A stretch of 64,000 bases of DNA from Burkholderiales bacterium (GTDB lineage: Bacteria > Pseudomonadota > Gammaproteobacteria > Burkholderiales > Burkholderiaceae_E): positions 1 to 64,000 of the forward strand of contig JAPOKJ010000004.1 in NCBI GenBank assembly GCA_029977705.1. Direction: 5' to 3'. Shown piece after piece: positions 44,719 to 59,795 of the stretch. The position numbers and the translations under genes were made by a program. Under the pieces are notes generated by a model, which was given only the letters and a program-made list of their open reading frames with translations, had not been told where the DNA came from and did not search any database. Positions within the stretch are counted from its first letter, which is position 1; each line of letters opens with the position of its first letter.

Positions 44719-45753
44719 GTGCCCCCAGTGTCGTCAGTCTCGCGGATTCGGCAACAGGCCCTGGCCCTGGCCAGCCTGTTTCTTGCACCCCTGTCCCTTG
44801 GAAACCTCATTCTCATCGCCAGCGGGGCCTTGTGGTCCTCAAGTCCTGTCCATGCCGCCTTCCCGGACAAGCCGGTGCGCATCGTCGTTCCCTTTGCGCC
44901 CGGCGGAGGCACCGACCTGATTGCCCGGACCCTGGGTCAAGGCATGGCGGCCGAACTCGGCCAGCCTGTGGTGATCGACAACAAGCCCGGCGCCGGTACC
45001 CTGATTGGCACGGATCTGGTAGCCAAGAGTACCCCCGATGGCTACACCCTGGTCATCGCCACCTTTGCCCATGCGGTCAATCCGGCCCTGCTGCCCAGGC
45101 TGCCCTATGCGCAGGACAAAGCCTTCGCCCCGGTCATCCTGATCGGCCGGTCGCCCAATGTCCTGGTGGTGCGCGCCGACAGTCCCCTCAAGTCGGTACG
45201 TGACCTGCTCACAGTGGCGCGCGCGCAGCCGAAGAAGCTCAGTTTTGCCTCGCAGGGCAATGGCACCTCGGCCCACCTGGCCGGCGAGTTGTTCAAGACC
45301 CTGGGAAAGGTCGAGATGACGCATATCGCCTATCGCGGCGCAGGCCCTGCGCTGACCGACCTGCTCGGGGGCCAAGTCGACATGATGTTCGCCACGTCCT
45401 CGGCGGTGGGTGCATTGCTCGATGGTGGCAAGCTTCGCGCCCTGGGGGTAACGACCGCAGAGCGATCGCCCGCGATGAAGGACGTTCCCAGCATTGCCGA
45501 GGCCGGCCTGGGCGGCTATGTGATGGAAAGCTGGTACGGTCTGTATGTCCCGGCCGGCACGCCAGCGGAGGTCATCGCACGCCTGAATGCCGCCGCCCGC
45601 AAGGCGGTGCAGACCGAGGTGTTCCGCAAGAAGGTGGCCGAGGAAGGCCTGACCATCAGTGCCGGAACGCCCGCCGAACTGGACCAGTATGTACGCGCCG
45701 AGGAGAGCCGCTGGCGCAAGATCATCAAAGACAACCACATCACTTCGGACTGA
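44719..45753 (+). CDS. Bug-type tripartite tricarboxylate receptor
   Basis: A 344-residue receptor with a long N-terminal segment (hydrophobic 14-40) ending near HAA. Motifs include KPVRIVVPFAPGGGTDLIARTLGQ, DNKPGAGTLIGTDL and TPDGYTLVIATFAHAVNP. The GTG start at 44719 has AAGGAA upstream. Enoyl-CoA hydratase and acyl-CoA synthetase genes follow with gaps of 3 bp or overlap, so it opens a plus-strand operon for uptake and activation of a carboxylate. It is the reference used here to size the deletion in the short Bug gene at 48667. Confidence 0.9.
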   Translation: MPPVSSVSRIRQQALALASLFLAPLSLGNLILIASGALWSSSPVHAAFPDKPVRIVVPFAPGGGTDLIARTLGQGMAAELGQPVVIDNKPGAGTLIGTDLVAKSTPDGYTLVIATFAHAVNPALLPRLPYAQDKAFAPVILIGRSPNVLVVRADSPLKSVRDLLTVARAQPKKLSFASQGNGTSAHLAGELFKTLGKVEMTHIAYRGAGPALTDLLGGQVDMMFATSSAVGALLDGGKLRALGVTTAERSPAMKDVPSIAEAGLGGYVMESWYGLYVPAGTPAEVIARLNAAARKAVQTEVFRKKVAEEGLTISAGTPAELDQYVRAEESRWRKIIKDNHITSD

Positions 45754-45756
45754 ACC

Positions 45757-46548
45757 ATGAGCCAAGACCTGATCGAACTGGACGTGCACGGTGGCATCGC
45801 AACGCTGAGCTTCAACCGGCCCGACAAGCGCAACGCGATGAGCGATGACATGCGTGCGCAATTCGTGGTCCACCTGGAGCGGATCACCGCTGACAAGTCG
45901 ATTCGCGCACTGGTGATCACCGGGCGTGGCAAGGGCTTTTGTGCCGGCGGTGATGTGGCCGGCATGGAACGGCGCATGAAGGCCCCGCAAGGCGAGATCG
46001 CCTTCAACGGCTGGGCCCGCCAGCAGCGCGTGCACTATGTGCAGTCGCTGTTGCATACCATGCCCAAACCGGTGGTGGCGGCAGTCAATGGCGCCGCCTC
46101 GGGCCTGGGTGCGGATACCGCCCTGGCCTGTGACTTCATCATCGCCAGCGAGCAGGCCAGCTTCACCTGGTCCTACATCCAGCGCGGCCTGATTCCCGAT
46201 GGCGGCGGCATGTATTTCCTGCCGCGCCGCGTGGGCCTGTCACGCGCCAAGCAGCTGATCTTCAGCGGGCGCAAGGTCGAGGCGGGCGAGGCCCTGCAGT
46301 TGGGCATCGCCGACCAGCTCGTGCCGCATGACGAACTCCTGGCTCGTGCCCAGGCCTTCGCAGACGAGATGAGCCGGGGCTCGGCCACGGCCCTGGCACT
46401 GGGCAAGACCATCATCAACCAGAGCTTCGAGCTGCCCGCCGAACAGGTGTTCGCCCGGGGCAGTCAGGCGCAAGGCATCTGCTACACCAGCAGCGAGCAC
46501 CGCGAATCGGTCATGGCCTTTCTGGCCAAGACCGCCAAGGCATCGTGA
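45757..46548 (+). CDS. Enoyl-CoA hydratase/isomerase family protein
   Basis: A 263-residue crotonase with GRGKGFCAGGDVAGM and NGAASGLGADTALACDF as oxyanion-hole elements and RGLIPDGGGMYFLPRRVG as the active-site loop. The loop carries Asp but not the usual Glu of hydratases, so isomerase or atypical hydratase activity is possible. It begins 3 bp after the Bug gene and overlaps the acyl-CoA synthetase start by 4 bp, indicating coupled translation. Confidence 0.88.
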   Translation: MSQDLIELDVHGGIATLSFNRPDKRNAMSDDMRAQFVVHLERITADKSIRALVITGRGKGFCAGGDVAGMERRMKAPQGEIAFNGWARQQRVHYVQSLLHTMPKPVVAAVNGAASGLGADTALACDFIIASEQASFTWSYIQRGLIPDGGGMYFLPRRVGLSRAKQLIFSGRKVEAGEALQLGIADQLVPHDELLARAQAFADEMSRGSATALALGKTIINQSFELPAEQVFARGSQAQGICYTSSEHRESVMAFLAKTAKAS

Positions 46549-48680
46549 ACATGCGTCTGCAACCCCTGCTTCAGCCGCGCAGTGTCGCGATCATCGGCGC
46601 CTCGGTCGATGCCGGCAAGACCTCGGGGCGACCGGTCGCCTACCTGCAAAAGCACGGCTTTGCGGGAGCGATCTATCCGGTCAATCCACGGGTGGCGCGC
46701 ATCGGGGACCTGACCTGTTTCCCGGATGTCGCCTCGCTGCCCGAGGTACCCGATGTGGCCATCGTCCTGCTGGGCGCCAGCCAGGCGCATCTGGCGGTCG
46801 GCGAACTGGCCGCCAAGGGCTGCGGCGCCGCCATCGTGCTGGCCAGCGGCTACAGCGAAACCGGGGAGCAGGGTGCGCATCGCCAGGCGGAGCTGGCCCG
46901 CGCCCGCGGCACGATGCGTCTGCTGGGGCCGAATACCATCGGCCTGGTCAACCTCACCGACCGCATCGTGCTCTCGGCCAGCAGCGCACTGGAGATGGAC
47001 CACTTTCCCACTGGCAACCTGGCCGTGATCTCGCAAAGCGGAGGCATCCTGGGCTCGCTGCTGTCACGGGCCTCGGCACGCGGCATCGGTCTGTCCAAGC
47101 TGGTGTCGACGAGCAACGAGCTGGACATCGATCTGGCCGATGTCATGGAGGATCTGGTGGACGATCCGGCCACGGCGGTCATCGCGCTGTACATCGAAAG
47201 CGTGCGACACCCGGAGCGCTTTCGCGCCGCAGCGCAGCGCGCCCGCGAGGCGGGCAAGCCGGTCGTGGCGTACAAGATCGGCCGCTCGGAGGCCGGTGCC
47301 CGGGCCGCAGCCTCGCACACCGGCGCGATGGCGGGCGAGGACCGGATGTACGACGCCTTCTTCAGCTCGCTGGGCATCCAGCGCGCCCAGACCTTCTCCG
47401 AACTGCTCGACATCCCCTGTGCCCTGGCCACCGGGCGACGCTTGCGCGGCAAGCGGGTGGCGATCCTCACCTCGACGGGCGGCGCCGGCACCCTGGTCTC
47501 GGATGCGCTGGGCGTGGCTGGATTCGAAACCCCTGCGCCTGACTCGAAGACCGGAGAGCGCCTGCGTGCGCTGCAACCCGGCGATCACGCCGCGATGGAC
47601 CGCAATCCGATCGATGTGACGCTGGCAGGCCTGCAGCCGGCGTTGCTGCGTGGCGCGATCCAGACCTTGCTGGACAGCCCGGGCTATGACGCCCTGGCCC
47701 TGATCGTCGGTTCATCGGGCTTGTCGCAACCTGAATTGATGGCGGGAGCAATCGGCGCCTGCCTGCCCGGCAGCGACAAACCGGTCGTGGCCTATGTCAG
47801 CCCGAGCGCACCGACCGTTGCAGCGGTCCTCACGCAGCGCGGCGTGCCAGCCTTCATGGCCCCGGAATCCTGTGCCGTGGCCATCGGGGCACTCTGGCAT
47901 CGTGAAGGCCCCGCGCTTGAGCGAGGGGCACCCCTCTATGAGGCCCCCGCCGTGCCGCTGCCGACCAACGAAGCGCTGCTCGCCAGCCTGCCAACAGGCA
48001 CGCTCGATGAGGCCCAGTCCAAGCGGCTGTTTTCACGCGCGGCGATCACCTGCACGCCGGAAGAGGTGGTCAGCGATGCCGGCCAGGCAGAAGCGGCAGC
48101 GCGGCGCCTCGGAGAACCGGTCGTGCTCAAGCTGCTGTCCTCGACCATCACCCACAAGAGCGACATGGGCGGCGTCGCGCTCGGACAGACGGCAAGCTCG
48201 ATCGGCGCGCGTCTGGAGCAGATGCGACAGGCAATCCAGACCCAGGGGACAGCCATCGAAAAATTTCTGGTGCAGGCCCAGGTCAGGGGAGGTACCGAGA
48301 TGATCCTGGGCATGCATCGCGATGCCCTGGGAACAGCGATACTGCTCGGCATGGGCGGCATTACGGCCGAATTGTTCGAGGACACCACCTTGCAGATGCT
48401 GCCCCCCGGCCAGGCGCAGGGCAGCCTTCGTCCCCTGACCCGCGCCGAGGCGATGGCGATGGCGCGCCGCCTCAAGACCTGGCCCCTGCTTGCCGGTTAC
48501 CGCGGACGTCCCCCGGCCGATCAGGAGGCCCTTGTCTCGGCCATCGTCCAGTTCTCGGCACTGGTGGCACAACTGGGCGATCGACTCGCCGAGGCCGAGA
48601 TCAATCCCCTGTTTGTGCTGGACGGCGGGCAAGGCGTCGTAGCTGCCGACGGCGTCGTGCGTCTGGCTATTCCGGCTTGA
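46545..48680 (+). CDS. NDP-forming acyl-CoA synthetase
   Basis: A 711-residue single-chain ADP-forming synthetase (acetyl-CoA synthetase/pimeloyl-CoA type). Domain order is CoA-binding (about 8-140, SVAIIGASVDAGKTSGRP), ligase with the phospho-His segment AASHTGAMAGEDRM, and an ATP-grasp domain at the C-terminus (LGEPVVLKLLSSTITHKSDMGGVALG, GTEMILGMHRD). It makes an acyl-CoA from a free acid with ATP. A GTG start at 46545 overlaps the preceding stop; an ATG at 46551 is equally possible. Together with the hydratase and Bug gene it forms an uptake/activation unit. Confidence 0.9.
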   Translation: MNMRLQPLLQPRSVAIIGASVDAGKTSGRPVAYLQKHGFAGAIYPVNPRVARIGDLTCFPDVASLPEVPDVAIVLLGASQAHLAVGELAAKGCGAAIVLASGYSETGEQGAHRQAELARARGTMRLLGPNTIGLVNLTDRIVLSASSALEMDHFPTGNLAVISQSGGILGSLLSRASARGIGLSKLVSTSNELDIDLADVMEDLVDDPATAVIALYIESVRHPERFRAAAQRAREAGKPVVAYKIGRSEAGARAAASHTGAMAGEDRMYDAFFSSLGIQRAQTFSELLDIPCALATGRRLRGKRVAILTSTGGAGTLVSDALGVAGFETPAPDSKTGERLRALQPGDHAAMDRNPIDVTLAGLQPALLRGAIQTLLDSPGYDALALIVGSSGLSQPELMAGAIGACLPGSDKPVVAYVSPSAPTVAAVLTQRGVPAFMAPESCAVAIGALWHREGPALERGAPLYEAPAVPLPTNEALLASLPTGTLDEAQSKRLFSRAAITCTPEEVVSDAGQAEAAARRLGEPVVLKLLSSTITHKSDMGGVALGQTASSIGARLEQMRQAIQTQGTAIEKFLVQAQVRGGTEMILGMHRDALGTAILLGMGGITAELFEDTTLQMLPPGQAQGSLRPLTRAEAMAMARRLKTWPLLAGYRGRPPADQEALVSAIVQFSALVAQLGDRLAEAEINPLFVLDGGQGVVAADGVVRLAIPA

Positions 48681-49239
48681 TGCCCAGGCGTCCCACCACG
48701 CTGCGCCAGACGCCGATCTCGCGCCGGATGATCGCCTGGAACTGCGCCGCACTGCCGCCGGCCGGCGATGCGCCATCGATCTCGAGCTTGGCCGCCGTCT
48801 CGCGGGTCTGCAGGATCTTGTTGACCTCGCTGTTGATGCGCTGGACGATCTCGGCGGGCAGGCCCTTGGGGCCGATCAGCCCATACCAGAGGGTGACCTC
48901 ATAGTCCTTGTAGCCCGACTCGGCCACTGTCGGCACCTGGGGCAAGGCCGCAATGCGTTCCCGCGTGGTCCCCGCCAGGGCCCGGAGCTTGCCGGCCTTG
49001 TTCTCCACCAGTACAGGCTGGCCCAGGGCTTGGGTCAGACCCTGGGCGATGTAGCGGGCAATGATATCGGCGCCCCCGCCGGGCACGAAGGTGACGATCA
49101 GCCGGATCGGCTTGTCGGGGTACTCACCCGCCTGCACAGGGGTCGGAACGGCGATCGTGCCAAGCGCCAGCAAGGCCAGGCCGAGACGGACCCGTGTCCC
49201 GAGGGCACGAACCCGCCGGCGCCCTTCAGTGGGCCACAT
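48667..49239 (-). pseudogene. Bug receptor with internal in-frame deletion
   Basis: A 190-residue open frame with a proper signal peptide (LGLALLALGTIAVPTPVQAG) and the Bug N-terminus (PDKPIRLIVTFVPGGGADII). After PVLVENKAG it continues directly with KLRALAGTTRERIAALPQ, the C-terminal part. Aligned with the intact Bug at 44719, about 146 central residues are absent, exactly in frame, with the shared Gly at the joint (codon 83, about 48991). Most of the ligand-binding cleft is lost, so it is unlikely to bind substrate. It shares its 3' end with the acyl-CoA synthetase gene and overlaps the upstream CMD-like gene. Confidence 0.75.
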
Positions 49240-49753
49240 TCAGGGCCACCAGCAAGCGCGACACCATGTTGTAGGCCGCCACCGTCGCCACCACCTCGAC
49301 CACCGCCCTGGCATCGAAGTGCTGTTGCAGCCGATCCATCAGGGCCTCGGGGACCTGAACCTCGCGCGTCATGGCATCGGTCAGTTCCAGTACCAGGCGC
49401 TCCAGCGGCTCGAAGGGAAAAGAGAGCGCCGCTTCACGGACGGCGTCGATCTTCAGTTGCGACACCCCCGCCTGCAGGGCATGGGGAACATGGGCGTCGA
49501 ATTCGAAGGCCGCCCGGTTGAGCACGGCCACGCGCAGGATCATCAACTCGCGCAAGTCAGCCGGCACGCTGGTCTGGTTGCGGACAGCCGTGAGCATGCG
49601 CTCCCAGCCCGAGGCAATCGGGCCGCTGTTGAGCAGCACCTGGTACAGCAGCGAGACACGGCCACGCTCGGCCATGATGCGCTGCTCGATGTCGGCCAGT
49701 TCCGGGCGGGTGCCCGGCTGCACCAGGGGAACGCGGGTCCTGGCGTGGCTCAT
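49226..49753 (-). CDS. Carboxymuconolactone decarboxylase-family protein without CxxC
   Basis: A 175-residue all-helical AhpD/CMD-like protein with the segments RELMILRVAVLNRAAFEFDAHVPHALQAGV and LVLELTDAMTREVQVP. The redox pair CxxC of AhpD is absent: the position reads EFDAHVPH. Members of this kind include decarboxylases or lactonases, and proteins of unknown role in catabolic operons. It overlaps the deleted Bug gene by 14 bp. The start at 49753 is the natural ATG. Confidence 0.8.
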   Translation of the reverse strand: MSHARTRVPLVQPGTRPELADIEQRIMAERGRVSLLYQVLLNSGPIASGWERMLTAVRNQTSVPADLRELMILRVAVLNRAAFEFDAHVPHALQAGVSQLKIDAVREAALSFPFEPLERLVLELTDAMTREVQVPEALMDRLQQHFDARAVVEVVATVAAYNMVSRLLVALNVAH

Positions 49754-49813
49754 CAGGCCTCCCTGCAGGCGTTAGGAAGGGGCTGTGCAAGATGGAAAGA
49801 CGACGCCATGGCT

Positions 49814-50614
49814 TCAATCACAACGGGCCGTCATGCCACCATCGACCACGATTTCGGTGCCGGTGATGAAGCGCGCCTCATCGCTGGCCAGAAACAGCAC
49901 GGCCGACGCCGTATCACGTCCATCTCCCATGAAGCCCAGGGGAATGCGCTTCTGGCGTGCGGCCAGCAAGGCCTCGACATCACCGCCGGTGCGCTGCCTG
50001 GCAAGGCGGGTCTCCACCATCGGGGTATGCAACTGCCCTGGCACCACGCAATTGACGCGTACCCCGAGTGGCGCATGCTGGACCGCGACCACCTTGGACA
50101 GATGGATCACGCCCGCCTTGGTGGCGGCATAGGCCACCTGGGCGCTGCCCGTCCAGCGCTGGCCCGAGGTGGACGCGATATTGACGATGGCGCCGGACTT
50201 CTTCGCGATCATCACCGGCAGGACATGCTTGCAACTGAGGAAGACGCTCTTGAGGTTGAAGTCCACCTGAGTGTCCCAGACCTCCTCGTCCATTTCCACC
50301 GGTCCGCCGGCCGCGGAGCCCCCGACGTTGTTGACCAGCACATCCACGGTTCCGAAGGCCTCGATGCAGGCCTGCACCATCGCCTTGACGTCCGCGTTTT
50401 TCGTGACATCGCAGATGTGGGTGCGGATCGACGTACGCAGCGGTCCGACCCGTTCGAGCGTTTCCTCGAGTCGCGCCGGATCACGATCCACGGCCAGTAC
50501 GCGAGCGCCCTCTTCCGCCAGCCGTACCGTGATGGCGCGGCCATTGCCCCATCCGGGACCGACACAGCCGGCACCCGTGACAATCGCCACCTTGTTTTCG
50601 AATCGCTTGTTCAT
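49814..50614 (-). CDS. Short-chain dehydrogenase/reductase
   Basis: A 266-residue SDR. The cofactor loop is extended (TGAGCVGPGWGNGRA instead of TGxxxGIG). NNVGG lies near 93, catalytic Ser in ASTSGQ, and Tyr-x3-Lys in YAATK. It ends GTEIVVDGGMTARCD. It is on the same strand as the CMD-like and LigI-like genes and 60 bp upstream of the former. It could oxidise a hydroxyacid or diol intermediate. Confidence 0.87.
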   Translation of the reverse strand: MNKRFENKVAIVTGAGCVGPGWGNGRAITVRLAEEGARVLAVDRDPARLEETLERVGPLRTSIRTHICDVTKNADVKAMVQACIEAFGTVDVLVNNVGGSAAGGPVEMDEEVWDTQVDFNLKSVFLSCKHVLPVMIAKKSGAIVNIASTSGQRWTGSAQVAYAATKAGVIHLSKVVAVQHAPLGVRVNCVVPGQLHTPMVETRLARQRTGGDVEALLAARQKRIPLGFMGDGRDTASAVLFLASDEARFITGTEIVVDGGMTARCD

Positions 50615-50643
50615 CCTGTGTCCTGCTTCGGTTGCCGGGGCGC

Positions 50644-51474
50644 TCAGCCAAACCGGTAAAGGCGTGCCGGGTTGTCGACCAGCAGGGCCTGCAATTCGGC
50701 GGGCGTGGGCGCGATGCTGTGCGCAAGGCCCAGCAGCGCCTGCTCATCGGGCACTGGACCGGCATGGTTGGGATGAGGCCAGTCATTGCCCCACAGCACG
50801 CGGTCCCCATGATCGAGCAGCAGTCGCCGCGCAAACGGCAGCGCATCGGCATACGGCGGCCCCGCGCGGGTGATACGGTCCATGCCGCTGAGCTTGACCC
50901 AGAAACGGGTATCGCGCATCAGCCGCTGCAGGGCCACGAAATCAGCTTGCCCGGCACCCAGGCCGGCATCGATGCGGCCGATATGATCGATGACCACGGG
51001 CACCGGCGAACGGCTCAGTGCGGGCCCGAGATCCGTCAACAGGGCGGGATCGCCGTGGATCTGCAGGTGCCAGCCCAGCGGGGCCATGCGCGCCGCCAGC
51101 GTCAGCACCGCCTCGATGGAGACGCGCTTGCCCAGGTGGCCCATGAAGTTGAAGCGCACACCGCGAAATCCCGCCTTGTTCAGTCGCCGCAATTCTTCTT
51201 CCGCGACGTCGATCGGCAGCAGGGCGATGCCACGGTAGTCGCGCGGCCGCGCTGCAATCGCATCTTCGGTGACGCTGTTGTCAAACCCATGGCAGGTCGA
51301 TTGCACCACGACACAGCGCTGCAGGCCGAGCCGGTCGTTGAGCGCAAACAGCGCCTCCTTGGGGGCGTCGGTACCCGGCACGAAAGGAGCGTCTTCGGCA
51401 TAGGGAAAGCGGTCTCGGGGACCGAAGACATGGCAATGGGCGTTGCAGGCGCCGGGCGGCAGTGAAGCAGTCAT
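50644..51474 (-). CDS. Amidohydrolase-family protein, LigI-like
   Basis: A 276-residue TIM-barrel hydrolase of the group containing 2-pyrone-4,6-dicarboxylate lactonase (LigI). The N-terminus GACNAHCHVFGPRDRFPYAE matches LigI closely. VVQSTCHGFDNS, GVRFNFMGHLGKRVS, VIDHIGRIDAG and the conserved GNDWPHPN (catalytic-type Asp and His) follow. It may hydrolyse a lactone of a dicarboxylate. The start at 51474 was chosen by the motif position; a longer upstream extension reads into the promoter region. Confidence 0.88.
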   Translation of the reverse strand: MTASLPPGACNAHCHVFGPRDRFPYAEDAPFVPGTDAPKEALFALNDRLGLQRCVVVQSTCHGFDNSVTEDAIAARPRDYRGIALLPIDVAEEELRRLNKAGFRGVRFNFMGHLGKRVSIEAVLTLAARMAPLGWHLQIHGDPALLTDLGPALSRSPVPVVIDHIGRIDAGLGAGQADFVALQRLMRDTRFWVKLSGMDRITRAGPPYADALPFARRLLLDHGDRVLWGNDWPHPNHAGPVPDEQALLGLAHSIAPTPAELQALLVDNPARLYRFG

Positions 51475-51601: not shown

Positions 51602-52483
51602 ATGAGCACCGCCACCCACACCCAGGACAATCCCGATCTGCAGCAATGGATCGGCCGCCAGGAGACCCTTCACGACGAGATCGTCGCCGCGCCGGTCAAG
51701 GCGATGACTGCCACCATGGACTATCCGGACATCGATGCCGCCGCCGTGCCAGGCACTCCCCTGCCCTACCTGTGGCACTGGCTGTATTTCCTGCCGGTGT
51801 ACCGCCAATCGATCCTCAGTCTGGATGGCCACCCGGTCAAGGGCGGGTTTCTGCCCCCGGTCCCGCTGCCGCGTCGCATGTGGGCTGGCAGCCAGTTCGA
51901 ATTCCACTCGCCGGTACGGGTCGGTGACAAGGTGTCACGCACCTCGACGATCGTCGATGTCAGTGAAAAGAGCGGTCGCACCGGACGCCTGGTCTTCGTC
52001 AAGGTCAAGCACGAGGTTCGCTGCAACGGCGCGACGGCCCCTGCCATCACCGAGTTCCATGACATCGTCTATCGCGACCTGGCCCAGCCCGGCGATGTTC
52101 CCCCGCCGCCGCAGGCCGCCCCCCGGGAGGCCACCTGGCGACGCGAGATCCATGGCGATCCGGTGCTGCTGTTCCGCTACTCGGCGCTCACCTTCAATGG
52201 CCACCGCATCCATTACGACCGCAGCTATGTCACCGAAGTCGAGGGCTACCCCGGCCTGATCGTGCACGGCCCGCTGATCTCGACCCTGCTGATGGACCTG
52301 CTGCGCCGGCAGATGCCGGGCGCCGATGTGGCCACCTTCAAGTTCAAGGCGGTACGCCCGACCTTCGACCTGAATCCGTTTACCGTGCAGGGCGTACCCT
52401 CGGCCGATGGCAAGAGCGTGCACCTGTGGGCGGCCGACCATGAGGGCTGGCTGACCATGGATGCCAGCGTGACGCTGCGCTGA
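51602..52483 (+). CDS. MaoC/HTD2-type acyl-CoA hydratase
   Basis: A 293-residue double-hotdog protein. The N-terminal half has a FAS1-type dehydratase-like fold; the C-terminal half carries FNGHRIHYD and YPGLIVHGPL, typical of mesaconyl-C4-CoA or itaconyl-CoA hydratase. The family hydrates short branched enoyl-CoA. It diverges from the LigI-like gene, and the next gene, a fumarase-superfamily lyase, starts 45 bp later on the same strand. Confidence 0.87.
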   Translation: MSTATHTQDNPDLQQWIGRQETLHDEIVAAPVKAMTATMDYPDIDAAAVPGTPLPYLWHWLYFLPVYRQSILSLDGHPVKGGFLPPVPLPRRMWAGSQFEFHSPVRVGDKVSRTSTIVDVSEKSGRTGRLVFVKVKHEVRCNGATAPAITEFHDIVYRDLAQPGDVPPPPQAAPREATWRREIHGDPVLLFRYSALTFNGHRIHYDRSYVTEVEGYPGLIVHGPLISTLLMDLLRRQMPGADVATFKFKAVRPTFDLNPFTVQGVPSADGKSVHLWAADHEGWLTMDASVTLR

Positions 52484-52528
52484 CCCCGCCTTCCCCCTTC
52501 CCCCGAACCGCAGCACAGGAACTCCGGC

Positions 52529-53899
52529 ATGGCCGCCAGCATCATCGACTCGATCATCTTCCAGGGCATCTTCACGACCGACGCGATGCGTCAGGTCTGG
52601 TCCGATGAGAACCGAACCCAGAAATACCTCGACATCGAGTGCGCGCTGGCCAAGGTGCAGGGCCGCCTGGGCCTGATCCCCCAGGAGGCTGCCGACGAAA
52701 TCGTCAGCCATTGCCACCTGGACCAGATCGACATGGTCAAGCTGCGCGCCCAGACCGAACGCATCGGCTATCCCATCCTGGGCGTGGTCTCGCAACTCAA
52801 TGCCCTGTGCCGCGACAAGCTGGGCGAGTTCTGTCACTGGGGTGCCACCACCCAGGACATCACCGACACCGCCACCGCCCTGCTGATCCGCGAGGGCCTG
52901 GCCCTGGTGGAAGCCGACCTGCAGGCCATCGCCGATGCGCTGGCCAAGCTGTGCCGCGAGCACCGCGACACGCCGATGATCGGCCGCAGCAATCTGCAGC
53001 AGGCCATTCCGGTCACCTTCGGCTACAAGATGGCCGGACTGCTGTCGGCCGTGCTGCGTCACCAGGAACGCCTGCAGCAGCTCAAGCCGCGCGTGCTGGT
53101 GGGTGAATTTGCAGGTGCTGCCGGTACGCTGGCCTCGCTCGAGACCGGTGCGATGGAGACCCAGGCCGGCGTATGCGCCGAGCTGGGCCTGGGCCAGCCG
53201 GTGATCGCCTGGCACACCATTCGCGATTGCATCGCCGAGGTCGGCACCTTCCTGGGTCTGGTCGGTGGCACGCTGGGCAAGCTGTCGATGGATGTCAAGC
53301 TGATGATGCAGACTGAGGTCGGCGAGGTCTACGAGCCCTATCACCATGGCCGCGGCTCCTCGAGCACGATGCCGCAAAAACGCAATCCGATTGCCAGCTG
53401 CTACATCCATGCCGGCATCTCCACCGTGCGCCAGCATGCCGCGGCCTTGATGGATGCCATGGTGGCCGACCATGAGCGCTCGACCGGCCCCTGGGAAATC
53501 GAATGGATCGTGCTGCCCGAGGCCTTCTGCCTGATGGCTGGCGCCCTCAAACAGTCGCGCGCCGTGCTCGAAGGGCTGGAGGTGGATGTCGCGCGCATGC
53601 GTGCAAACCTGGACATCACCAAGGGCCTGGTCATGTCCGAGGCGGTGATGATGGGCCTGGGGCCCTACATCGGCCGCGAATACGCCCACGACCTGGTCTA
53701 TGACATCTGCCGCGAGGCCATCCGCAGCGACCGCCACCTGCTTGACCTGCTTTGCGAGCATCCCGAGATCAACAAGCACCTGGACCGCCCCGCACTGGCC
53801 CGCCTGTGCGATCCCGCCCACTATCTCGGCCAGTCCGGCGTGATGGTCGATCGTGTGCTGGCCGCCAAGGCCAGGCAGGACGCCAGCCGCCAGGCCTGA
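52529..53899 (+). CDS. Fumarase/aspartase-superfamily lyase (CMLE/ASL-like)
   Basis: A 456-residue homotetrameric-type lyase resembling adenylosuccinate lyase and 3-carboxy-cis,cis-muconate cycloisomerase. Signature loop GSSSTMPQKRNP is at 276-287 with the catalytic Ser region. CHWGATTQDITDT lies at about 102-114. The position usually occupied by His in the GRTHxQ motif is Asn154 (IGRSNLQQAIP). The context (LigI-like, CMD-like, HpaI aldolase) suggests a carboxymuconate-type or aspartate-type dicarboxylate substrate. It starts 45 bp after the MaoC gene. Confidence 0.87.
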   Translation: MAASIIDSIIFQGIFTTDAMRQVWSDENRTQKYLDIECALAKVQGRLGLIPQEAADEIVSHCHLDQIDMVKLRAQTERIGYPILGVVSQLNALCRDKLGEFCHWGATTQDITDTATALLIREGLALVEADLQAIADALAKLCREHRDTPMIGRSNLQQAIPVTFGYKMAGLLSAVLRHQERLQQLKPRVLVGEFAGAAGTLASLETGAMETQAGVCAELGLGQPVIAWHTIRDCIAEVGTFLGLVGGTLGKLSMDVKLMMQTEVGEVYEPYHHGRGSSSTMPQKRNPIASCYIHAGISTVRQHAAALMDAMVADHERSTGPWEIEWIVLPEAFCLMAGALKQSRAVLEGLEVDVARMRANLDITKGLVMSEAVMMGLGPYIGREYAHDLVYDICREAIRSDRHLLDLLCEHPEINKHLDRPALARLCDPAHYLGQSGVMVDRVLAAKARQDASRQA

Positions 53900-53922
53900 A
53901 GCATTCCCGAGGACCCATCGAC

Positions 53923-54684
53923 ATGCGCAGAAACAAGCTCAAGGACCTGTTCGCCGCCGGCCAACCCGCCCTGGGCGGCTGGATGGGCTTTTCCAGCCCC
54001 TTCGCTGCCGAGGTGATGGGCCACGCCGACATGGACGTGGTGGTCGTGGACCTGCAGCATGGTCCGATCTATCTGGATGCGGCAGTACCGATGCTGCAGG
54101 CGATCTCGGCCACCCCGGCAGTGCCGATGGCACGTGTATCGGTGAACCAGTTCTTCGAGATCAACAAGCTGCTCGATGCCGGCGCCTACGGCCTGATCTG
54201 CCCGCTGGTCAACAGCGCGGCCGATGCGCAGAGCTTCGTCAGCGCCTGCTGCTACCCGCCGCAGGGTACGCGTTCCTTCGGTCCGTCAAGGGGCGTGCTC
54301 TATGGCGGACCAGATTATTTCGAGCATGCCAACGACACCATCACCAAGCTGGCGATGATCGAGACCACCGACGGCCTGAAGAACCTGGACAAGATCCTGG
54401 CAGTCAAGGGCCTGGATGGCGTATTCGTAGGCCCGAGCGACCTGAGCCTGGCCCTGGGCCTGCCACCGACGCCCGACTTCCGGGCCGATCCGCTCAGGAA
54501 GACGCTCGCGAGGATCCTGAAGGCCGCGCGCAAGCACAAGAAGATGATCGGCATCTTCTGCTCCACGCTCGAGTTCGCGCAGGAGATGAAGCGCCAGGGC
54601 TGGGATTTCATCGTGCTGGCCAATGACGCCTATCTGCTGCGCCACGTCACGACGCAGTGGGCGGCAGCGGTCAGGAAGGGTTGA
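53923..54684 (+). CDS. HpcH/HpaI-family class II (metal-dependent) aldolase
   Basis: A 253-residue aldolase related to 4-hydroxy-2-oxoheptanedioate aldolase. Visible features are VVVDLQHGP with the catalytic-type His (about 47), AMIETTDGLKNLDKILAVKGLDGVFVGPSDLSLALGL with the metal Glu, and the Arg in MARVSV. It would split a hydroxy-oxoacid into pyruvate or oxaloacetate and an aldehyde. It begins 23 bp after the lyase gene and overlaps the convergent membrane-protein gene by 14 bp. Confidence 0.9.
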   Translation: MRRNKLKDLFAAGQPALGGWMGFSSPFAAEVMGHADMDVVVVDLQHGPIYLDAAVPMLQAISATPAVPMARVSVNQFFEINKLLDAGAYGLICPLVNSAADAQSFVSACCYPPQGTRSFGPSRGVLYGGPDYFEHANDTITKLAMIETTDGLKNLDKILAVKGLDGVFVGPSDLSLALGLPPTPDFRADPLRKTLARILKAARKHKKMIGIFCSTLEFAQEMKRQGWDFIVLANDAYLLRHVTTQWAAAVRKG

Positions 54685-55183
54685 GTGAGCGGCGCCGCCT
54701 GATCCAGCGCCGCAGGCACAGGATCAGGAACAGCAGCGCAAGCGTCCATTTGCAGCTGGCTGCCACGCCCGCAAGGGTGTAAGCCTCATCGGGCATGGCA
54801 CTGGCGGCGGGCGAGAGAAAGCGCAGATGCAGCACATTCTCGATCACATCGAGACCTCCTGCCGCTGGCAGCAGCCAGGGCAGCAGCCGCGCGCCGATAT
54901 CGGGCCTGGGCTCCTGCCCGAGCCAGCGTCTTCCATACAGCAAACCCGCCGTCGAGAAGCACAGCACGAAGGCGAAGTCGATCGGGAAGTGATCCCGCAC
55001 CTGCTGCAGCGCCAGGGGAGACCAGCGGGCCAGCACCGCCTCGAAGCCCGAGCGGCTGAAACTGAGCTGGGCGCGCACGACGCTGGGCACGACATCGCGG
55101 GTCATCCACACCAGGTCGATGAAGAGCAGGACCGCCAGCAGCGCAGAGATCGGGCCCAGATGCTGTCGCAAGGAAAGCTTCAT
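54671..55183 (-). CDS. Small membrane protein of unknown function
   Basis: A 170-residue inner-membrane protein with hydrophobic segments at about 10-28, 68-86, 98-116 and 145-162, and a basic C-terminal tail (RRWIRRRRSLNPS). No known domain recognised. Its ATG overlaps the TGA of the Bug receptor upstream (TGATG), so it is translationally coupled to it. It is too small to be TctA and does not resemble TctB, so it is not obviously the missing transporter subunit, although the coupling is suggestive. Confidence 0.7.
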   Translation of the reverse strand: MKLSLRQHLGPISALLAVLLFIDLVWMTRDVVPSVVRAQLSFSRSGFEAVLARWSPLALQQVRDHFPIDFAFVLCFSTAGLLYGRRWLGQEPRPDIGARLLPWLLPAAGGLDVIENVLHLRFLSPAASAMPDEAYTLAGVAASCKWTLALLFLILCLRRWIRRRRSLNPS

Positions 55184-56148
55184 CAATCGACCTTTGCACC
55201 CGACTGCTTGATCACCGCCTGCCAGGCCGCTGCATCGCGCCGGATCATGTCATTGAACTCAGCCTGCGTCATGGGATTGGCATCGACGCCCATCTGCGCC
55301 AATTGCTGGCGGAACTCGGGGGTCGCCAGGGCCTTGTTGATCTCGCCATGCAGGCGCGCCTGGATCTCGGCGGGCAGGCCATTGGGCGCGGCCACCGACT
55401 GCCAGGCCTGGGTATCGAGCCCCTTGAAGACTTCGGCCACCGCCGGCACCTCGGGCGCCAGCGCACTGCGCTTGCTGCCGGTGACCGCCAGCGCCTTGAC
55501 CTTGCCGGCGCGCATCTGGGGCACGGCGACGCTGGCATCGATGAACATGAAGTCCAGGCGACCCGCGATGACATCGGTCAGGGCGGGAATGCTGCCCTGA
55601 TAGGGAATGTGCACCGCGGAGACCCGCTCACGGGCCTTGATCATTTCCATCACCAGGTGATGGACTGTGCCATTGCCCGGGGAACCGAAGTTGTAGCGCC
55701 CCGGCGACTTGCGCAGCAAGGCCACCAGCTCCTGCAAGGACTTGACCGGAAAGTCGGGCCGGGTGACCAGGAACAGGGTGACATTGCCCAGCATCGCGAT
55801 GCCGGTCAGATCGGTGATCCTGATCGGCGCGTTCTGGAAAAGGAAGGGAGCGATGCCCAGGGTAGTGCTGGTCGCCACCATCAGGGTGTAGCCATCGGGC
55901 GGCGACTTGGCCACCTGGGCGGCACCGACCAGGGTGCCGGCGCCCGGGCGGTTCTCGATGACCACGGCCTGGTTGAAGGCTGCACGCAGGCGCTCGGCAA
56001 CGGCACGGCCCAGGTTGTCGGTCAGTGCCCCGGGAGGGAAAGGCACGACCATCCTGATCGGTCGGTCCGGGTAGGCGCTCTGGGCGCGAAGCAGCCCGGG
56101 CAGGGCAGTGGCGGCGAGGCCGGCGGCCAGCAGGTGTCGTCGTTGCAT
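55183..56148 (-). CDS. Bug-type tripartite tricarboxylate receptor
   Basis: A 321-residue receptor with a short signal (RRHLLAAGLAATALPGLL, ending near RAQSA). The motifs are YPDRPIRMVVPFPPGALTDNLGRAVAE, IENRPGAGTLVGAAQVA and PPDGYTLMVATSTTLG. The usual GG in PGG is changed to PGA. It lies 11 bp downstream of the dioxygenase gene and is coupled to a small membrane protein. The cluster suggests uptake of a substrate processed by the TauD and aldolase genes. Confidence 0.9.
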   Translation of the reverse strand: MQRRHLLAAGLAATALPGLLRAQSAYPDRPIRMVVPFPPGALTDNLGRAVAERLRAAFNQAVVIENRPGAGTLVGAAQVAKSPPDGYTLMVATSTTLGIAPFLFQNAPIRITDLTGIAMLGNVTLFLVTRPDFPVKSLQELVALLRKSPGRYNFGSPGNGTVHHLVMEMIKARERVSAVHIPYQGSIPALTDVIAGRLDFMFIDASVAVPQMRAGKVKALAVTGSKRSALAPEVPAVAEVFKGLDTQAWQSVAAPNGLPAEIQARLHGEINKALATPEFRQQLAQMGVDANPMTQAEFNDMIRRDAAAWQAVIKQSGAKVD

Positions 56149-56159
56149 GGTCGGCGGAA

Positions 56160-57107
56160 CTAGCTGCGCTCGAATTCGCGGATCGGGCGCTTGCCGTCCA
56201 CCGGCTTGAAGCCCTTGCCATCGGGCAGGCGCGTTGCCCCCTCCTCCGGCGCGTAATCGCCCGCCACGCCCACCGGTTCGGTGCCCGTGATGGTGACCCG
56301 TTCCATGGTGCGGCGCTGCGGGTAGTAATCATGCGCGGCGTAATGCTGCACGGCGCGGTTGTCCCACATCACCAGCATGTCCGGCTCCCAGCGCACCCGG
56401 CACTGATACTCGGGCACGGTGGCCTGGCGATACAGGTATTGCAGCACCATGTCGCTCTCGTCAGGCTTGAGGTCCTTGATGCGGAGGGTGAACTGCGCAT
56501 TGACATTGATCAGGCGCCGGCCCGATTCGGGGTGCACCCGCACCACTGGATGCCAGGGGTTTGGATATTGCCGTTCCAGTTCGCGCAGCTTGGCCTGGTG
56601 CTTTTCGCTGGAACTGAACAGGGGTCGCCAGGGTTTGAAATCATGCTGGGCGACCATGCCGTGGATGTAGCGCTTCATGCGCTCGGACAAGCCGGTATAG
56701 GCTGCCGTCATGCTGGCGAACAGGGTATCGCCGCCATGTTCGGGCACCACCCGCGAGCGCAGCAGGGTGGCCATCGGCGGATTGATGCGGAAGGTTTCGT
56801 CCGCATGCCACTGGTCGGTAAGCGCCGGCGGGTTGTCGGCCGAGTAATCGAGCACGATCACTTCACGCTTGTCATCGAGGTTGGGCGAAAAAGGGTGGAT
56901 CGAGAGCGGACCGAAACGCTGGCCGAAGGCCATCTGCTGCTCGAGCGTAAGCGCCGCCTGATTGCGAAAGACCAGCACCTGGTGGGTCACCCAGGCCTGA
57001 CGCAACTGCGTCTGGACCGCATCATCGAGCGGGCGTGACAGATCAAGGCCGAGGATTTCGGCGCCGATATTGCCGCTCAGGCGGCGGACTTGAAAGGCGG
57101 ATGACAT
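56160..57107 (-). CDS. TauD/TfdA-family 2-oxoglutarate-dependent dioxygenase
   Basis: A 315-residue dioxygenase of the typical TauD length. The iron site is His101-x-Asp103 (QWHADETF), with distal His in DNRAVQHYAAHDYY and Arg in RTMERVTITG. The N-terminus VRRLSGNIGAEILGLDLSRPL is classical for TauD/TfdA. It is the third member of this family in the window and is more canonical than the pair at 31.8-34 kb. It may cleave a sulfonate, ether or quaternary amine; context does not decide. Confidence 0.9.
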   Translation of the reverse strand: MSSAFQVRRLSGNIGAEILGLDLSRPLDDAVQTQLRQAWVTHQVLVFRNQAALTLEQQMAFGQRFGPLSIHPFSPNLDDKREVIVLDYSADNPPALTDQWHADETFRINPPMATLLRSRVVPEHGGDTLFASMTAAYTGLSERMKRYIHGMVAQHDFKPWRPLFSSSEKHQAKLRELERQYPNPWHPVVRVHPESGRRLINVNAQFTLRIKDLKPDESDMVLQYLYRQATVPEYQCRVRWEPDMLVMWDNRAVQHYAAHDYYPQRRTMERVTITGTEPVGVAGDYAPEEGATRLPDGKGFKPVDGKRPIREFERS

Positions 57108-57121
57108 GGGACTCCTGCGCT

Positions 57122-57958
57122 TCAGACGAGGTCGGGGTAACGGATGCCGGCCCGCTGCAACATGCCGTCGAACAACACCTGCCCGGGGCGCGACTGCATC
57201 TGCATCGGACGCCGCTGTTCGAGGATGACGCCGAACACCTTGGGATCGATCGGATGGTTCGCTCCGGCCATGCTGTCGGCCGCCATCTGGATCTCGCAGC
57301 CGCGCTGCGCCGTCCACATCGTCTGCAAGGTAACGGGGATGTCTTCGCCGCAGACCAGCAGGCCGTGGTTGCGCAGCACCAGCACGTTGCGCTGGCCCAG
57401 GCTTGCGATCAGGCGTGGCCCCTCGCCCAGGTGTGTGGTGATGCCTTCGAACTCGTGGTAGGCCACCTGGCCATGCAGCATCGCGGTGTAGAAGTTGTCG
57501 TGACGCATGCCCTCCTGCTTGCAGGCCACTGCCATGCCGGCCGTGGTGTGGGTATGCATGATGCAGTGGGCATCCGCGCGGGCCGCATGAATGACACTGT
57601 GGATGGTGAAGCCGGCAGGGTTGACAGGGAAGTCGGAATGCCCGACCACCGCACCGCGGGCATCGATCTTCACCAGATTGCTGGCGGTGACGAAGGCATA
57701 GTGCAGGCCGAAGGGATTGATCAGGTAATGCGGATTGTCGGCAGCGCCGCCCGGTACCCGCAGCGTGATGTGGTTGTAGATCATCTCGGTCCAGCCGAGG
57801 TAATCAAACAGGCGGTAACAAGCCGCCAGTTCCAGGCGCAAGGCCCATTCCTCGGCAGCCATGCCGGCCGGCCGCAGGCCCTGCATGTCTGCCAGCGAGG
57901 GGCTGCGGCCGGCGCTGCTGGCGGGCAAGGCGGCGGCGCCGTTCATGGGTGCGTTCAT
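57122..57958 (-). CDS. Class II aldolase/adducin-family protein
   Basis: A 278-residue protein with the fuculose-phosphate aldolase/adducin fold. CIMHTHTTAGMAVACKQEGM supplies the metal-binding His pair (HxH), with VLRNHGLLVCGEDIP later giving another His. It may catalyse retro-aldol cleavage or act as a non-catalytic adducin-like protein. A second member follows upstream at 58002 with a 43-bp gap. The TauD gene ends 14 bp downstream. Confidence 0.88.
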   Translation of the reverse strand: MNAPMNGAAALPASSAGRSPSLADMQGLRPAGMAAEEWALRLELAACYRLFDYLGWTEMIYNHITLRVPGGAADNPHYLINPFGLHYAFVTASNLVKIDARGAVVGHSDFPVNPAGFTIHSVIHAARADAHCIMHTHTTAGMAVACKQEGMRHDNFYTAMLHGQVAYHEFEGITTHLGEGPRLIASLGQRNVLVLRNHGLLVCGEDIPVTLQTMWTAQRGCEIQMAADSMAGANHPIDPKVFGVILEQRRPMQMQSRPGQVLFDGMLQRAGIRYPDLV

Positions 57959-58001
57959 CGCGGATGTCCTGTGCAAACCTGTGGAGACGGCGGGCGACGG
58001 A

Positions 58002-58763
58002 TCACACCCGGTAGGGCGTGCCGCGCTGGTCGATCTTGCGCAGCAGGGCCTTCCAGTTGTAGACGCCGTAATCCGGCTTGGCGCGGGCCTTCTGCATTGC
58101 CTTGGCAATGCCCTCGACCACGGCCGGTTCGACCATCACCGGTGGCTCGCCGAGCGTACGGGCGATCAACTCGAGTTCACAGGCCCGCTCGAGCATGTAC
58201 ATGCGGGCCAGCGTGCCGGGAACGGTCTCGCCCAGGGTCAGCAGGCCATGATTGAGCAGGATGACGCAATTGCCGGTCTTGCAGCTGACGCCCAGCGCCT
58301 CGCATTCTTCCTTCGAGGAAGGCAGGCCATACTCGTGGTAGACGACCTCGTCATAGATGATGAGGGCATCCTGGCTGATCGGACGCAGGCCATTGCGGAT
58401 CATGGACAGACCCGCGCCGGCGCGGGTATGGGTATGCATCACGCAATTGACGTCCGGCCGCGCCTTGTAGACCCCGCTGTGAATGGTCAGCCCGGCGGTG
58501 TTGAAACGCCCCTGGCGGCCGATGACATTGCCCTCCAAGTCCATCTTGATCAGGCTCGAGGCCGTGATCTCGTCGAACATTTCCTCGTAGTGATTGATCA
58601 GGAAGGTATTGGGCTCGCCGGGCACGCGCACCGACATGTGCGTGGCCAGGATGTCGGTCCATCCGAAGTAATCGCAGATGCGGTAAAGCGCGGCCAGGTC
58701 GCAACGCGCCTGCCATTCCGCATCGGTCATCGCCAAGCTGCCTTGGGGTTCTGTCGCGCCCAT
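58002..58763 (-). CDS. Class II aldolase/adducin-family protein
   Basis: A 253-residue relative of the neighbouring gene, with CVMHTHTRAGAGLSMIRNGL and ILLNHGLLTLGETVPGT giving metal-binding His residues, and NTAGLTIHSGVYKARPDV. The tandem arrangement probably arose by duplication. An AGGAGA site precedes the ATG. It is the first gene of the aldolase, aldolase, TauD, Bug, membrane-protein operon and diverges from a CitE-like gene. A GGTCCGACC palindrome lies 49 bp upstream. Confidence 0.88.
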   Translation of the reverse strand: MGATEPQGSLAMTDAEWQARCDLAALYRICDYFGWTDILATHMSVRVPGEPNTFLINHYEEMFDEITASSLIKMDLEGNVIGRQGRFNTAGLTIHSGVYKARPDVNCVMHTHTRAGAGLSMIRNGLRPISQDALIIYDEVVYHEYGLPSSKEECEALGVSCKTGNCVILLNHGLLTLGETVPGTLARMYMLERACELELIARTLGEPPVMVEPAVVEGIAKAMQKARAKPDYGVYNWKALLRKIDQRGTPYRV

Positions 58764-58811
58764 GTCCGTCTCCTGGTGAGCGTCAGGGGCTGGCCTCGGC
58801 GAGGTCTTGCA

Positions 58812-58820
58812 GGTCCGACC
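58812..58820. promoter_or_regulatory. Candidate GntR-type operator GGTCCGACC
   Basis: GGTC-C-GACC, extended to AGGTCCGACCT. It has the same 9-bp odd-palindrome pattern as the site at 19889. It lies between divergent catabolic genes, next to the aldolase start. Confidence 0.4.
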
Positions 58821-58856
58821 TGACCGGGCCACTTTACCACCGGCCCCCCGGTTTGG

Positions 58857-58870
58857 GGACCGATCGGTCC
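58857..58870. promoter_or_regulatory. 14-bp perfect palindrome in divergent promoter region
   Basis: GGACCGATCGGTCC, a perfect even palindrome about 70 bp before the CitE-like gene. It is a likely regulator-binding site, but no motif or regulator can be named. Confidence 0.4.
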
Positions 58871-58940
58871 GGTGTCACAGCCGGTGGCAACGGACCTTGT
58901 CATAAACTTCCCAGCCTGTCCGTTGCTCCGAGAAAGTCCC

Positions 58941-59795
58941 ATGACCGCTGCCGCCCGCCTCGCCCGTTCCCTGCTCTTCGTGCCGGGCGACCGCCCCGAA
59001 CGCTTCGACAAGGCCGCCGCTTCGGGCGCCGACGCGGTGATCCTCGATCTCGAGGATGCCGTGGGTACGAGCGCCAAAGGATCGGCCCGTCAGGCGATCC
59101 TGGACTGGCTGCCCGGCCATCACGGCAATGGCCTGTGGGTGCGCATCAATGCCGTGGGCAGCGCGGCCCATGACGATGATGTCGCCTTCCTGAAGCGCCT
59201 GTCGGCCTCACTGGCCGGCGCCGGCATCGCCGATGCGGTTCGCATCATGCTGCCCAAGGTGGAATCCAGGGCCTCGGTCGATGCCCTGGCCGGCAGCGTC
59301 GGCCATGGCCAGGGCCTGGAGATCATCGCGCAGATCGAATCGGCACTCGGCCTGGATCAGGCCCGTGACTTTGCACAAAGCGCCAGCATCACCCGCCTGG
59401 CCTTCGGCTCGATCGACTACAGCCTGGATCTGGGCCTGGCCCCCGATGAAGACCTCGCCCTGTTGCACGCCCGCTCGCACCTGGTCTGGGTGTCGCGCCT
59501 GGCCGAACTGCCGGCGCCGATCGACACGGTCACAGTAAACCTGAAGGACGCCAGCGTCATCGAGCACGATGCCCGGCTGGCCCGGCGCTTGGGCTTCGGA
59601 GGCAAGCTGTGCATCCATCCCTCGCAGGTGACGGCCGTCAATGCCGCCTTTTCGCCGAGCGAGAAGGACATTGCCTGGGCGCATGAGGTAGTCCGCGTCA
59701 GCCATGCGGCAGGCGACGGTGCCGTGAAGCTGGGCGACCAGATGATCGACAAGCCGGTGCTGTTGCGGGCGCAACGGATTCTGGCCTCGATCTGA
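58941..59795 (+). CDS. HpcH/HpaI aldolase, CitE-like lyase
   Basis: A 284-residue member of the citrate-lyase beta/malyl-CoA lyase group. RSLLFVPGDRPERFDKAAASGADAVILDLEDAV at the N-terminus and IAQIESALGLDQARDFAQS supply Arg and Glu ligands, and GKLCIHPSQVTAVNAAFSP closes the barrel. Relatives cleave citramalyl-CoA, malyl-CoA or similar thioesters. It diverges from the aldolase/TauD operon. With the MaoC-type hydratase and the NDP-forming synthetase it would make a plausible CoA-thioester route. Confidence 0.9.
   Translation: MTAAARLARSLLFVPGDRPERFDKAAASGADAVILDLEDAVGTSAKGSARQAILDWLPGHHGNGLWVRINAVGSAAHDDDVAFLKRLSASLAGAGIADAVRIMLPKVESRASVDALAGSVGHGQGLEIIAQIESALGLDQARDFAQSASITRLAFGSIDYSLDLGLAPDEDLALLHARSHLVWVSRLAELPAPIDTVTVNLKDASVIEHDARLARRLGFGGKLCIHPSQVTAVNAAFSPSEKDIAWAHEVVRVSHAAGDGAVKLGDQMIDKPVLLRAQRILASI

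Follow-up and report, generated by a model that had tools for sequence, protein, structure and literature searches.

Introduction

Itaconate is degraded in Pseudomonas through a gene cluster encoding a MaoC hydratase and a CitE-type lyase, with pyruvate and acetyl-CoA as products, a pathway said to have been described by Sasikaran et al. in 2014. The formation of itaconate is known from Ustilago maydis, for which the available part of PMC4720413 describes conversion of cis-aconitate to itaconate by the PrpF-family isomerase Adi1 together with the decarboxylase Tad1, which uses trans- but not cis-aconitate and, in the authors' proposal, protonates the double bond and releases a carboxyl group. 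Here we report that two adjacent genes of a Burkholderiales bacterium (51602-53899 of the 64,000-nucleotide stretch of contig JAPOKJ010000004.1, assembly GCA_029977705.1, that was analysed, hereafter the window) encode a MaoC-type hydratase and a Tad1-like lyase, and we propose, with a probability of roughly 0.72, that they carry out the first committed steps of trans-aconitate catabolism within a route to pyruvate and acetyl-CoA.

The bacterial genes resemble the U. maydis system in pairing, in related bacteria, a PrpF-family isomerase with a Tad1-type lyase (56% lyase identity, with Ser320 and Arg360 kept), and differ in that the fungus makes and exports itaconate, whereas the bacterial genes have genes for itaconate degradation and for import as neighbors. 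Tricarballylate utilization is related in that 17 of 80 relatives' loci encode both TcuA and TcuB next to the lyase, and the two are encoded beside a Bug receptor elsewhere in the window's own genome; however, TcuAB makes only cis-aconitate, and the tcu genes lie outside the island of genes considered here. The Pseudomonas itaconate cluster shares the MaoC hydratase, the CitE-type lyase and the predicted products, but the bacterial Tad1-type loci add an upstream decarboxylase and in relatives use a class III CoA-transferase, the window's own CitE falls below the RipC cut-off, and no MmgE/PrpD gene was found in the island, a gene that accompanies an itaconate cluster in the available part of PMC12290011. 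The same part of that 2025 paper describes a second cluster in C. necator, comprising MaoC, CoA-transferase and "adenylosuccinate lyase family" genes, for which "a different pathway" was suggested; the gene set, compared by description only, equals the one discussed below, and its function was left unassigned by the authors.

In some plants trans-aconitate makes up several per cent of the dry weight, and Bacillus velezensis takes up and assimilates the acid by means of TarRAB through isomerization to cis-aconitate; two of 12 trans-aconitate-using strains with analysed genomes have no TarA homologue (all from the available part of PMC11495376). That system shares with our proposal the uptake and use of trans-aconitate and differs in the isomerization, and the words "itaconate" and "decarboxylase" occur nowhere in the main text of the paper. 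Isomerization to cis-aconitate is the only bacterial trans-aconitate route described in the literature that we found. In the open-access literature, most subscription papers being outside this scope, we found no publication proposing bacterial breakdown of trans-aconitate via itaconate, and open-access sources likewise yielded no publication on Tad1 structures.

Results and Discussion

A lyase related to fungal trans-aconitate decarboxylase

The features on which the argument turns are the following.

51602-52483, + strand: MaoC/HTD2-type hydratase, probable itaconyl-CoA hydratase (ATG at 51602)
52529-53899, + strand: fumarase/CMLE-superfamily lyase, probable trans-aconitate decarboxylase (Tad1 similarity)
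53357-53359, + strand: codon of S277, equivalent to Tad1 S320 (alignment to Tad1)
53477-53479, + strand: codon of R317, equivalent to Tad1 R360 (alignment to Tad1)
53923-54684, + strand: HpaI/GarL-type aldolase (Pfam HpcH_HpaI), third gene of the MaoC-lyase strand block
58941-59795, + strand: CitE/RipC-type lyase, candidate (S)-citramalyl-CoA lyase (RipC_Ccl match, genome-wide comparison)

Given that only 45 and 23 bases separate the MaoC, lyase and HpaI genes, this block reads as an operon. Gene starts were picked among alternatives for MaoC and CitE, as for the LigI-like and TauD genes listed later, and MaoC was searched from 51593.

When the lyase was compared with 177,635 solved sequences the best match was U. 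maydis Tad1 (523 bits), followed by a "fumarate lyase" (3c8t, 463 bits) and the CMLE of P. putida (1re5, 384 bits). The alignment to Tad1 is gap-free, covers the full catalytic region and is identical in 244 of 435 columns (56%). An AlphaFold2 model of the lyase had a mean predicted local distance difference test score (pLDDT) of 81; the active-site loop, residues 269-284, scored below 50. In a Foldseek search with this model the first 12 matches were all Tad1 chains (top TM score 0.86 by query length), with CMLE next at a similar 0.85, so the fold alone is not decisive.

The residues are more informative in this respect. S277 and R317 of the lyase correspond to Ser320 and Arg360 of Tad1, and the Protein Data Bank holds an entry titled Tad1_S320A (9h4h) and one of Tad1-R360A with trans-aconitate (9h4g). 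S277, together with N155, K257, H294 and T112 (Tad1 S320, N198, K300, H337 and T155), occurs in all 89 lyases of the clade, a set made up of the lyases of the 80 loci, the window, four relatives, and four of seven plasmid hits of at least 73% identity. Of 10 comparison lyases, 40-55% identical to that of the window, only one, from Komagataeibacter, has S277; it keeps N155, K257 and T112 but not H294, and, at 55% identity, probably belongs with Tad1 even though it was counted in the comparison set. That set consisted of eight of nine genome hits (40-52% identity) and two of 30 plasmid hits below 60%, a lyase on contig G022:C56 that scored equally with the one on G022:C6 having been left out. 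R317 is common to all 99 lyases, and thus Arg360 carries no information on specificity.

In a tree of 38 rows, which drew on 24 of the 80 loci, Tad1 and 29 clade lyases shared a branch with 100/100 support, apart from eight other lyases. Taken together, these comparisons make the window lyase a probable trans-aconitate decarboxylase; its likeness to Tad1, which an earlier note on this DNA had missed, suggests trans-aconitate as the substrate.

The Komagataeibacter gene lies on plasmid pKOB1 of the acetic acid bacterium Komagataeibacter oboediens (L166, 5001-6422), a lone Tad1-like lyase gene beside an IS6 transposase, and its product has most of the Tad1 residues.

Comparison with PcaB

The same superfamily contains PcaB, and it could be argued that the lyase is in truth such a 3-carboxy-cis,cis-muconate cycloisomerase, or else a related enzyme of aromatic degradation, with the CMD- and LigI-like genes of the island belonging to the same ring-cleavage pathway. 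A homologue of the lyase, 80% identical, is publicly annotated pcaB, and the window lyase approaches the cut-off of one PcaB model, TIGR02426, which it misses narrowly (348.8 versus 355.75 bits); it misses that of the second, NF006554, clearly (504.7 versus 595). When three other Tad1-like lyases were scanned, two failed TIGR02426, one clade member (L032) was just over it (358.7), and none passed NF006554. Moreover, members of the PrpF family that adjoins the lyase in relatives pass the NCBI cut-off for 4-oxalomesaconate tautomerase. Both the L032 score and the PrpF result count in favor of a ring-cleavage function and against one in trans-aconitate catabolism.

On the other side, a lyase of relative G101 that is encoded beside the gene for the alpha subunit of protocatechuate 3,4-dioxygenase passes both models (TIGR02426 420, NF006554 642) and, unlike the window lyase, is without S277, N155, K257 and H294. 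Tad1 is also closer to the window lyase than CMLE is, by the bit scores given above, and a ring-cleavage pathway is not known to involve MaoC, CoA-transferase or CitE. No beta subunit of protocatechuate 3,4-dioxygenase exceeded the cut-off in the window's own genome (G000, a 143-contig assembly, 95.94% complete), the best match reaching 57 versus 296.4 bits. With the cut-offs missed, the Tad1 residues present and no dioxygenase beta subunit above the cut-off in the genome, a PcaB identity for the lyase was rejected, and we regard this explanation as a whole as distinctly unlikely.

Other lyases of the CMLE family (L137-L144 and L167) are 40-54% identical to that of the window, are without the Tad1 serine and have no MaoC nearby; L143 is a PcaB whose gene adjoins that of a protocatechuate 3,4-dioxygenase alpha subunit.

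The conserved neighborhood of the lyase in relatives

The genes around the lyase in other bacteria were compared in 80 named loci, the best 80 of 255 relatives, in which counts favor close kin. Hidden Markov models (HMMs) of the neighbors were built from these 80 loci, with the window left out, and run back on them, and the counts describe that set. Above score floors, MaoC was found in 64 loci, a class III CoA-transferase in 62, CitE in 54, PrpF in 48, TcuA in 19 and TcuB in 18 (both Tcu genes in 17). MaoC and CoA-transferase occurred together in 58 of the 80, with CitE as well in 47, and with PrpF in addition in 36. Dropping the floors changed these values little (MaoC 65, CoA-transferase 65, CitE 54, PrpF 50, TcuA 19, TcuB 19), and of 62 loci whose upstream flank reached 6 kb or more, 57 had MaoC, 54 CoA-transferase, 44 CitE and 46 PrpF. 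The names CoA-transferase III, PrpF, TcuA and TcuB come from one or two representatives of each family (NCBIfam, Pfam), those of TcuA and TcuB being over the NCBIfam cut-offs.

As a control, the loci of the 10 comparison lyases contained no MaoC and no CitE; their CoA-transferase scores reached at most 314, versus a clade median of 766, and a single PrpF scored 266, below the floor of 300.

Operons of this kind are seen on publicly annotated plasmids. On the Bradyrhizobium CB82 plasmid the genes for DctA, MaoC, CaiB, a CoA ester lyase and an "adenylosuccinate lyase family protein" are consecutive, with a divergent LysR gene; the Variovorax SRS16 plasmid has MaoC, CaiB, CoA ester lyase, lyase, DctA, LysR, a TTT receptor and a "4-oxalomesaconate tautomerase"; and the A. 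brasilense plasmid has LysR, "4-oxalomesaconate tautomerase", DctA, MaoC and a lyase named pcaB. On the C. oxalaticus plasmid, which also encodes a clade lyase, the order is MaoC-CaiB-lyase, and CitE is absent within flanks of 8 kb, a set comparable to the second C. necator cluster as described.

In three loci (L038 3925-6387, L165 12850-14871 and L164 11450-13489) PrpF and TctC (Bug) share one reading frame, Pfam placing PrpF before TctC; for L164 this comes from blast and HMM matches. The frame is perhaps an isomerase-receptor fusion.

A proposed route from trans-aconitate to pyruvate and acetyl-CoA

On the basis of sequence relationships, gene neighborhoods and residue conservation, from which every reaction is inferred, we propose the following route. 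A tricarboxylate would be imported by a Bug/TTT, TRAP or DctA system, differing between species. The lyase would protonate trans-aconitate and expel CO2 to give itaconate, as inferred from Tad1; a class III CoA-transferase, here probably one encoded on contig C18, would convert itaconate to itaconyl-CoA; the MaoC protein would hydrate this to citramalyl-CoA; and a CitE-type lyase, for which 58941-59795 is the best candidate in the genome, would split citramalyl-CoA to pyruvate and acetyl-CoA. Species other than this one may also supply the route through a PrpF-type isomerase, which would interconvert cis- and trans-aconitate, and through TcuAB, which would oxidize tricarballylate to cis-aconitate.

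The hydratase assignment is consistent with the solved matches of the MaoC protein, of which there are only two: itaconyl-CoA hydratase (8khg, 250 bits) and 8huc (249 bits), a chain almost identical to 8khg and named by domain. No second match of this type was found in the genome. Three places in the genome are CitE-like, and the window CitE ranks first among them, being 45% identical to the CitE of relatives' clusters compared with 29% and 27% for the others. It matches RipC_Ccl (NF038242) with 156.9 bits and misses the cut-off of 375, as does the one cluster CitE scanned (143.4). Its closest relatives at a strict cut-off are in G024, G055, G075, G082 and G088; those of G024 and G055 sit in MaoC-CoA-transferase-CitE clusters, as does the CitE of G015, and G024 also has MmgE/PrpD, a gene confirmed in L149 by domain scan.

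The earlier note had placed a MaoC hydratase and a CitE-type lyase at the center of itaconyl-CoA degradation, a view that our data support, and the carboxylate substrate and the products it expected, pyruvate and an acyl-CoA, likewise agree with the route proposed here, in which the substrate is probably trans-aconitate. It had also stated that no CoA-transferase is present, which is true of the island; a class III CoA-transferase query, however, matched 29 times in the genome, and one of these matches, on contig C18, is 71-74% identical to the cluster enzyme. Close to a contig end, it adjoins the genes of an acyl-CoA dehydrogenase and of a second class III enzyme. The note's suggestion that the NDP-forming synthetase of the island takes the place of the transferase was not borne out, given that the relatives' clusters use a class III CoA-transferase; the synthetase was rejected as the itaconate activator, a CoA-transferase having been found in the genome and a synthetase homologue in none of the 80 lyase loci. 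The two class III genes on C18 are in tandem (G000:C18:74993-77266), and the match to the second includes one in-frame TGA.

Elsewhere in the genome, contig C121 carries Bug-TcuA-TcuB, and C129 carries LysR, PrpF, Bug and porin genes followed by a class II aldolase and a PEP-mutase-family gene, the last two of which make it unsure that the front part lacking from the cluster is to be found on C129. The gene set of the trans-aconitate route is thus dispersed in this genome.

We also considered that the MaoC-lyase pair might act on a homologue of aconitate, such as 2-methylaconitate or another alkenyl tricarboxylate, yielding a substituted itaconate for a relaxed hydratase and CitE lyase. PrpF-family isomerases also act on 2-methylaconitate (PMC5690661), the window CitE is divergent, and the operon contains an extra HpaI aldolase. 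The residues shared with Tad1, Ser320 included, nevertheless favor trans-aconitate itself, and the occurrence of TcuA and TcuB together in lyase loci suggests an unsubstituted aconitate. This substrate seems unlikely to us.

Several further observations, beyond the L032 and PrpF scores discussed above, weigh against the assignment to trans-aconitate catabolism. The signature residues other than S320, which was singled out by a PDB mutant, were chosen after the alignment had been seen. The tree has long branches, Tad1 included (a program warning), and a branch of the 29 clade lyases alone had only 73/50 support. Five of the 80 loci have no MaoC, CoA-transferase, CitE or PrpF nearby (seven with score floors). 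In the window itself there is no CoA-transferase in the operon or in the island as a whole, and the operon contains an HpaI aldolase, a gene that lies outside the conserved cluster of relatives (a homologue is near the lyase in only one of the 80 loci). The window CitE is divergent (283 bits with the cluster CitE HMM versus 290-465 for cluster members, the 290 belonging to a truncated protein), and its gene, next to that of a class II aldolase, begins 4.3 kb downstream of HpaI. Finally, the best PrpF of the genome, that on C129, passes the cut-off for 4-oxalomesaconate tautomerase (499 versus 440), and may not be an aconitate isomerase but serve another pathway.

Extending the trans-aconitate reading beyond this genome, we are inclined to think that many Pseudomonadota own an unrecognized pathway from trans-aconitate through itaconate to pyruvate and acetyl-CoA that by-passes the tricarboxylic acid cycle, that the lyase is the bacterial counterpart of Tad1, and that the fungal itaconate pathway was maybe assembled from a bacterial degradation cluster. 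If so, it would be a second bacterial way to use trans-aconitate, beside isomerization to cis-aconitate, and one by which soil bacteria may eat this plant acid. It would account for the C. necator genes to which no function was given in 2025 (PMC12290011, in the part available) and correct a pcaB misannotation, the key enzyme being annotated at present as PcaB or as a member of the adenylosuccinate lyase family. It would also supply bacterial decarboxylases for itaconate production and hint at the origin of the fungal itaconate gene pair.

The remainder of the island

The MaoC and lyase genes lie within a 15-kb island, 44719-59795, whose other features are given below.

44719-48680, + strand: separate block of Bug, enoyl-CoA hydratase and NDP-forming acyl-CoA synthetase
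44719-45753, + strand: Bug/TctC receptor (Pfam/NCBIfam)
45757-46548, + strand: enoyl-CoA hydratase (Pfam/NCBIfam)
46545-48680, + strand: NDP-forming acyl-CoA synthetase (Pfam/NCBIfam)
48667-51474, - strand: separate block of deleted Bug, CMD-like, SDR and LigI-like amidohydrolase
48667-49239, - strand: Bug with an internal deletion (Pfam)
49226-49753, - strand: CMD-like protein (Pfam)
49814-50614, - strand: SDR (Pfam), omitted from the earlier note
50644-51474, - strand: LigI-like amidohydrolase (Pfam)
54671-58832, - strand: separate block of small open reading frame, Bug, TauD and two class II aldolases
54671-55186, - strand: small open reading frame, no Pfam or NCBIfam match
55183-56148, - strand: Bug receptor (Pfam)
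56160-57110, - strand: TauD dioxygenase (Pfam)
57122-58108, - strand: class II aldolase, first (Pfam)
58002-58832, - strand: class II aldolase, second (Pfam)

The genes that the earlier note had named are all present; it omitted the SDR, and its description of the Bug receptors as intact is wrong for 48667-49239, in which about 145 internal residues are missing in frame while either end can still be aligned with an intact Bug, making it likely a decayed copy. The island consists of five strand blocks in the order +, -, +, -, +, and, with four strand changes, cannot be a single operon.

The note had suggested that all 15 kb might serve a single pathway processing a dicarboxylate or lactone after import. 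Consistent with that reading are the physical closeness of the genes in this genome and the presence of three TctC-type receptors (one deleted) and several carboxylate-type enzymes; the four strand switches speak against it, as do comparisons with other genomes. No homologue of the synthetase, CMD, LigI-like or TauD protein was found in any of the 80 lyase loci (tblastn, E<=1e-12, flanks of at most 10 kb), and for other proteins these loci held only a few weak homologues, none above 46% identity (HpaI 1, enoyl-CoA hydratase 2, SDR 3, the two class II aldolases 2 and 3). A DNA search with the whole stretch gave matches in 34 of 41 genomes, the window's own included, and in the 40 relatives the pieces among the matches listed were no longer than about 2.2 kb.

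In G026, G070 and G124 island markers are on contigs other than that of the lyase. In G026, MaoC-lyase is on C39, CMD-SDR on C58, the LigI-like gene with a Bug on C25, and TauD-Bug-class II aldolase on C65; because several of the pieces fall close to the end of a contig, assembly breaks may contribute, though their neighbors differ. In G070 the LigI-like and SDR genes are on C409, again apart from the lyase. A strict search of 150 genomes found, the window's own aside, the lyase in four (at least 73% identity), the SDR in four, TauD in four and CitE in five, and at an E-value limit of 1e-100 the lyase was found in 11 genomes. No relative of the 149 had two of these four markers on one contig at the strict cut-offs, many contigs being short.

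The note itself had held that scattering of the genes in other genomes would tell against a single pathway: most of the island is scattered in this way, while MaoC and the lyase are not, nor is the CitE-type gene in relatives' clusters. We therefore consider a single pathway for the whole island highly improbable, and its other blocks are probably unrelated to the MaoC-lyase route.

The best solved match of the LigI-like protein is 2-pyrone-4,6-dicarboxylate hydrolase (LigI, 231 bits), and the sole NCBIfam model it matches is that of 4-sulfomuconolactone hydrolase (NF042924, 208.9 versus a cut-off of 500 bits, missed). Yet nothing found connects this amidohydrolase to the lyase, and a pyrone-dicarboxylate link was set aside. 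The HpaI-type aldolase is below the cut-offs of all four NCBIfam models it matches, including that of 4-hydroxy-2-oxoheptanedioate aldolase HpaI (TIGR02311, 167.6 versus 368.8 bits). A promoter scan found no promoters, and a terminator scan gave nine terminator-like sites compared with 5.7 (standard deviation 2.7) in shuffled sequences.

Bug/TctC receptor genes are numerous, occurring in the window at 30786-31775, 43549-44565, 44719-45753 and 55183-56148 and on other contigs as well; searched at the DNA level with 2 kb that starts with a Bug gene, the genome yielded 48 matches, most of them inside the Bug part. Two tandem TauD-family dioxygenase genes adjoin a Bug gene at 31776-34157 (- strand), a second TauD-Bug pairing in the window besides that at 55183-57110.

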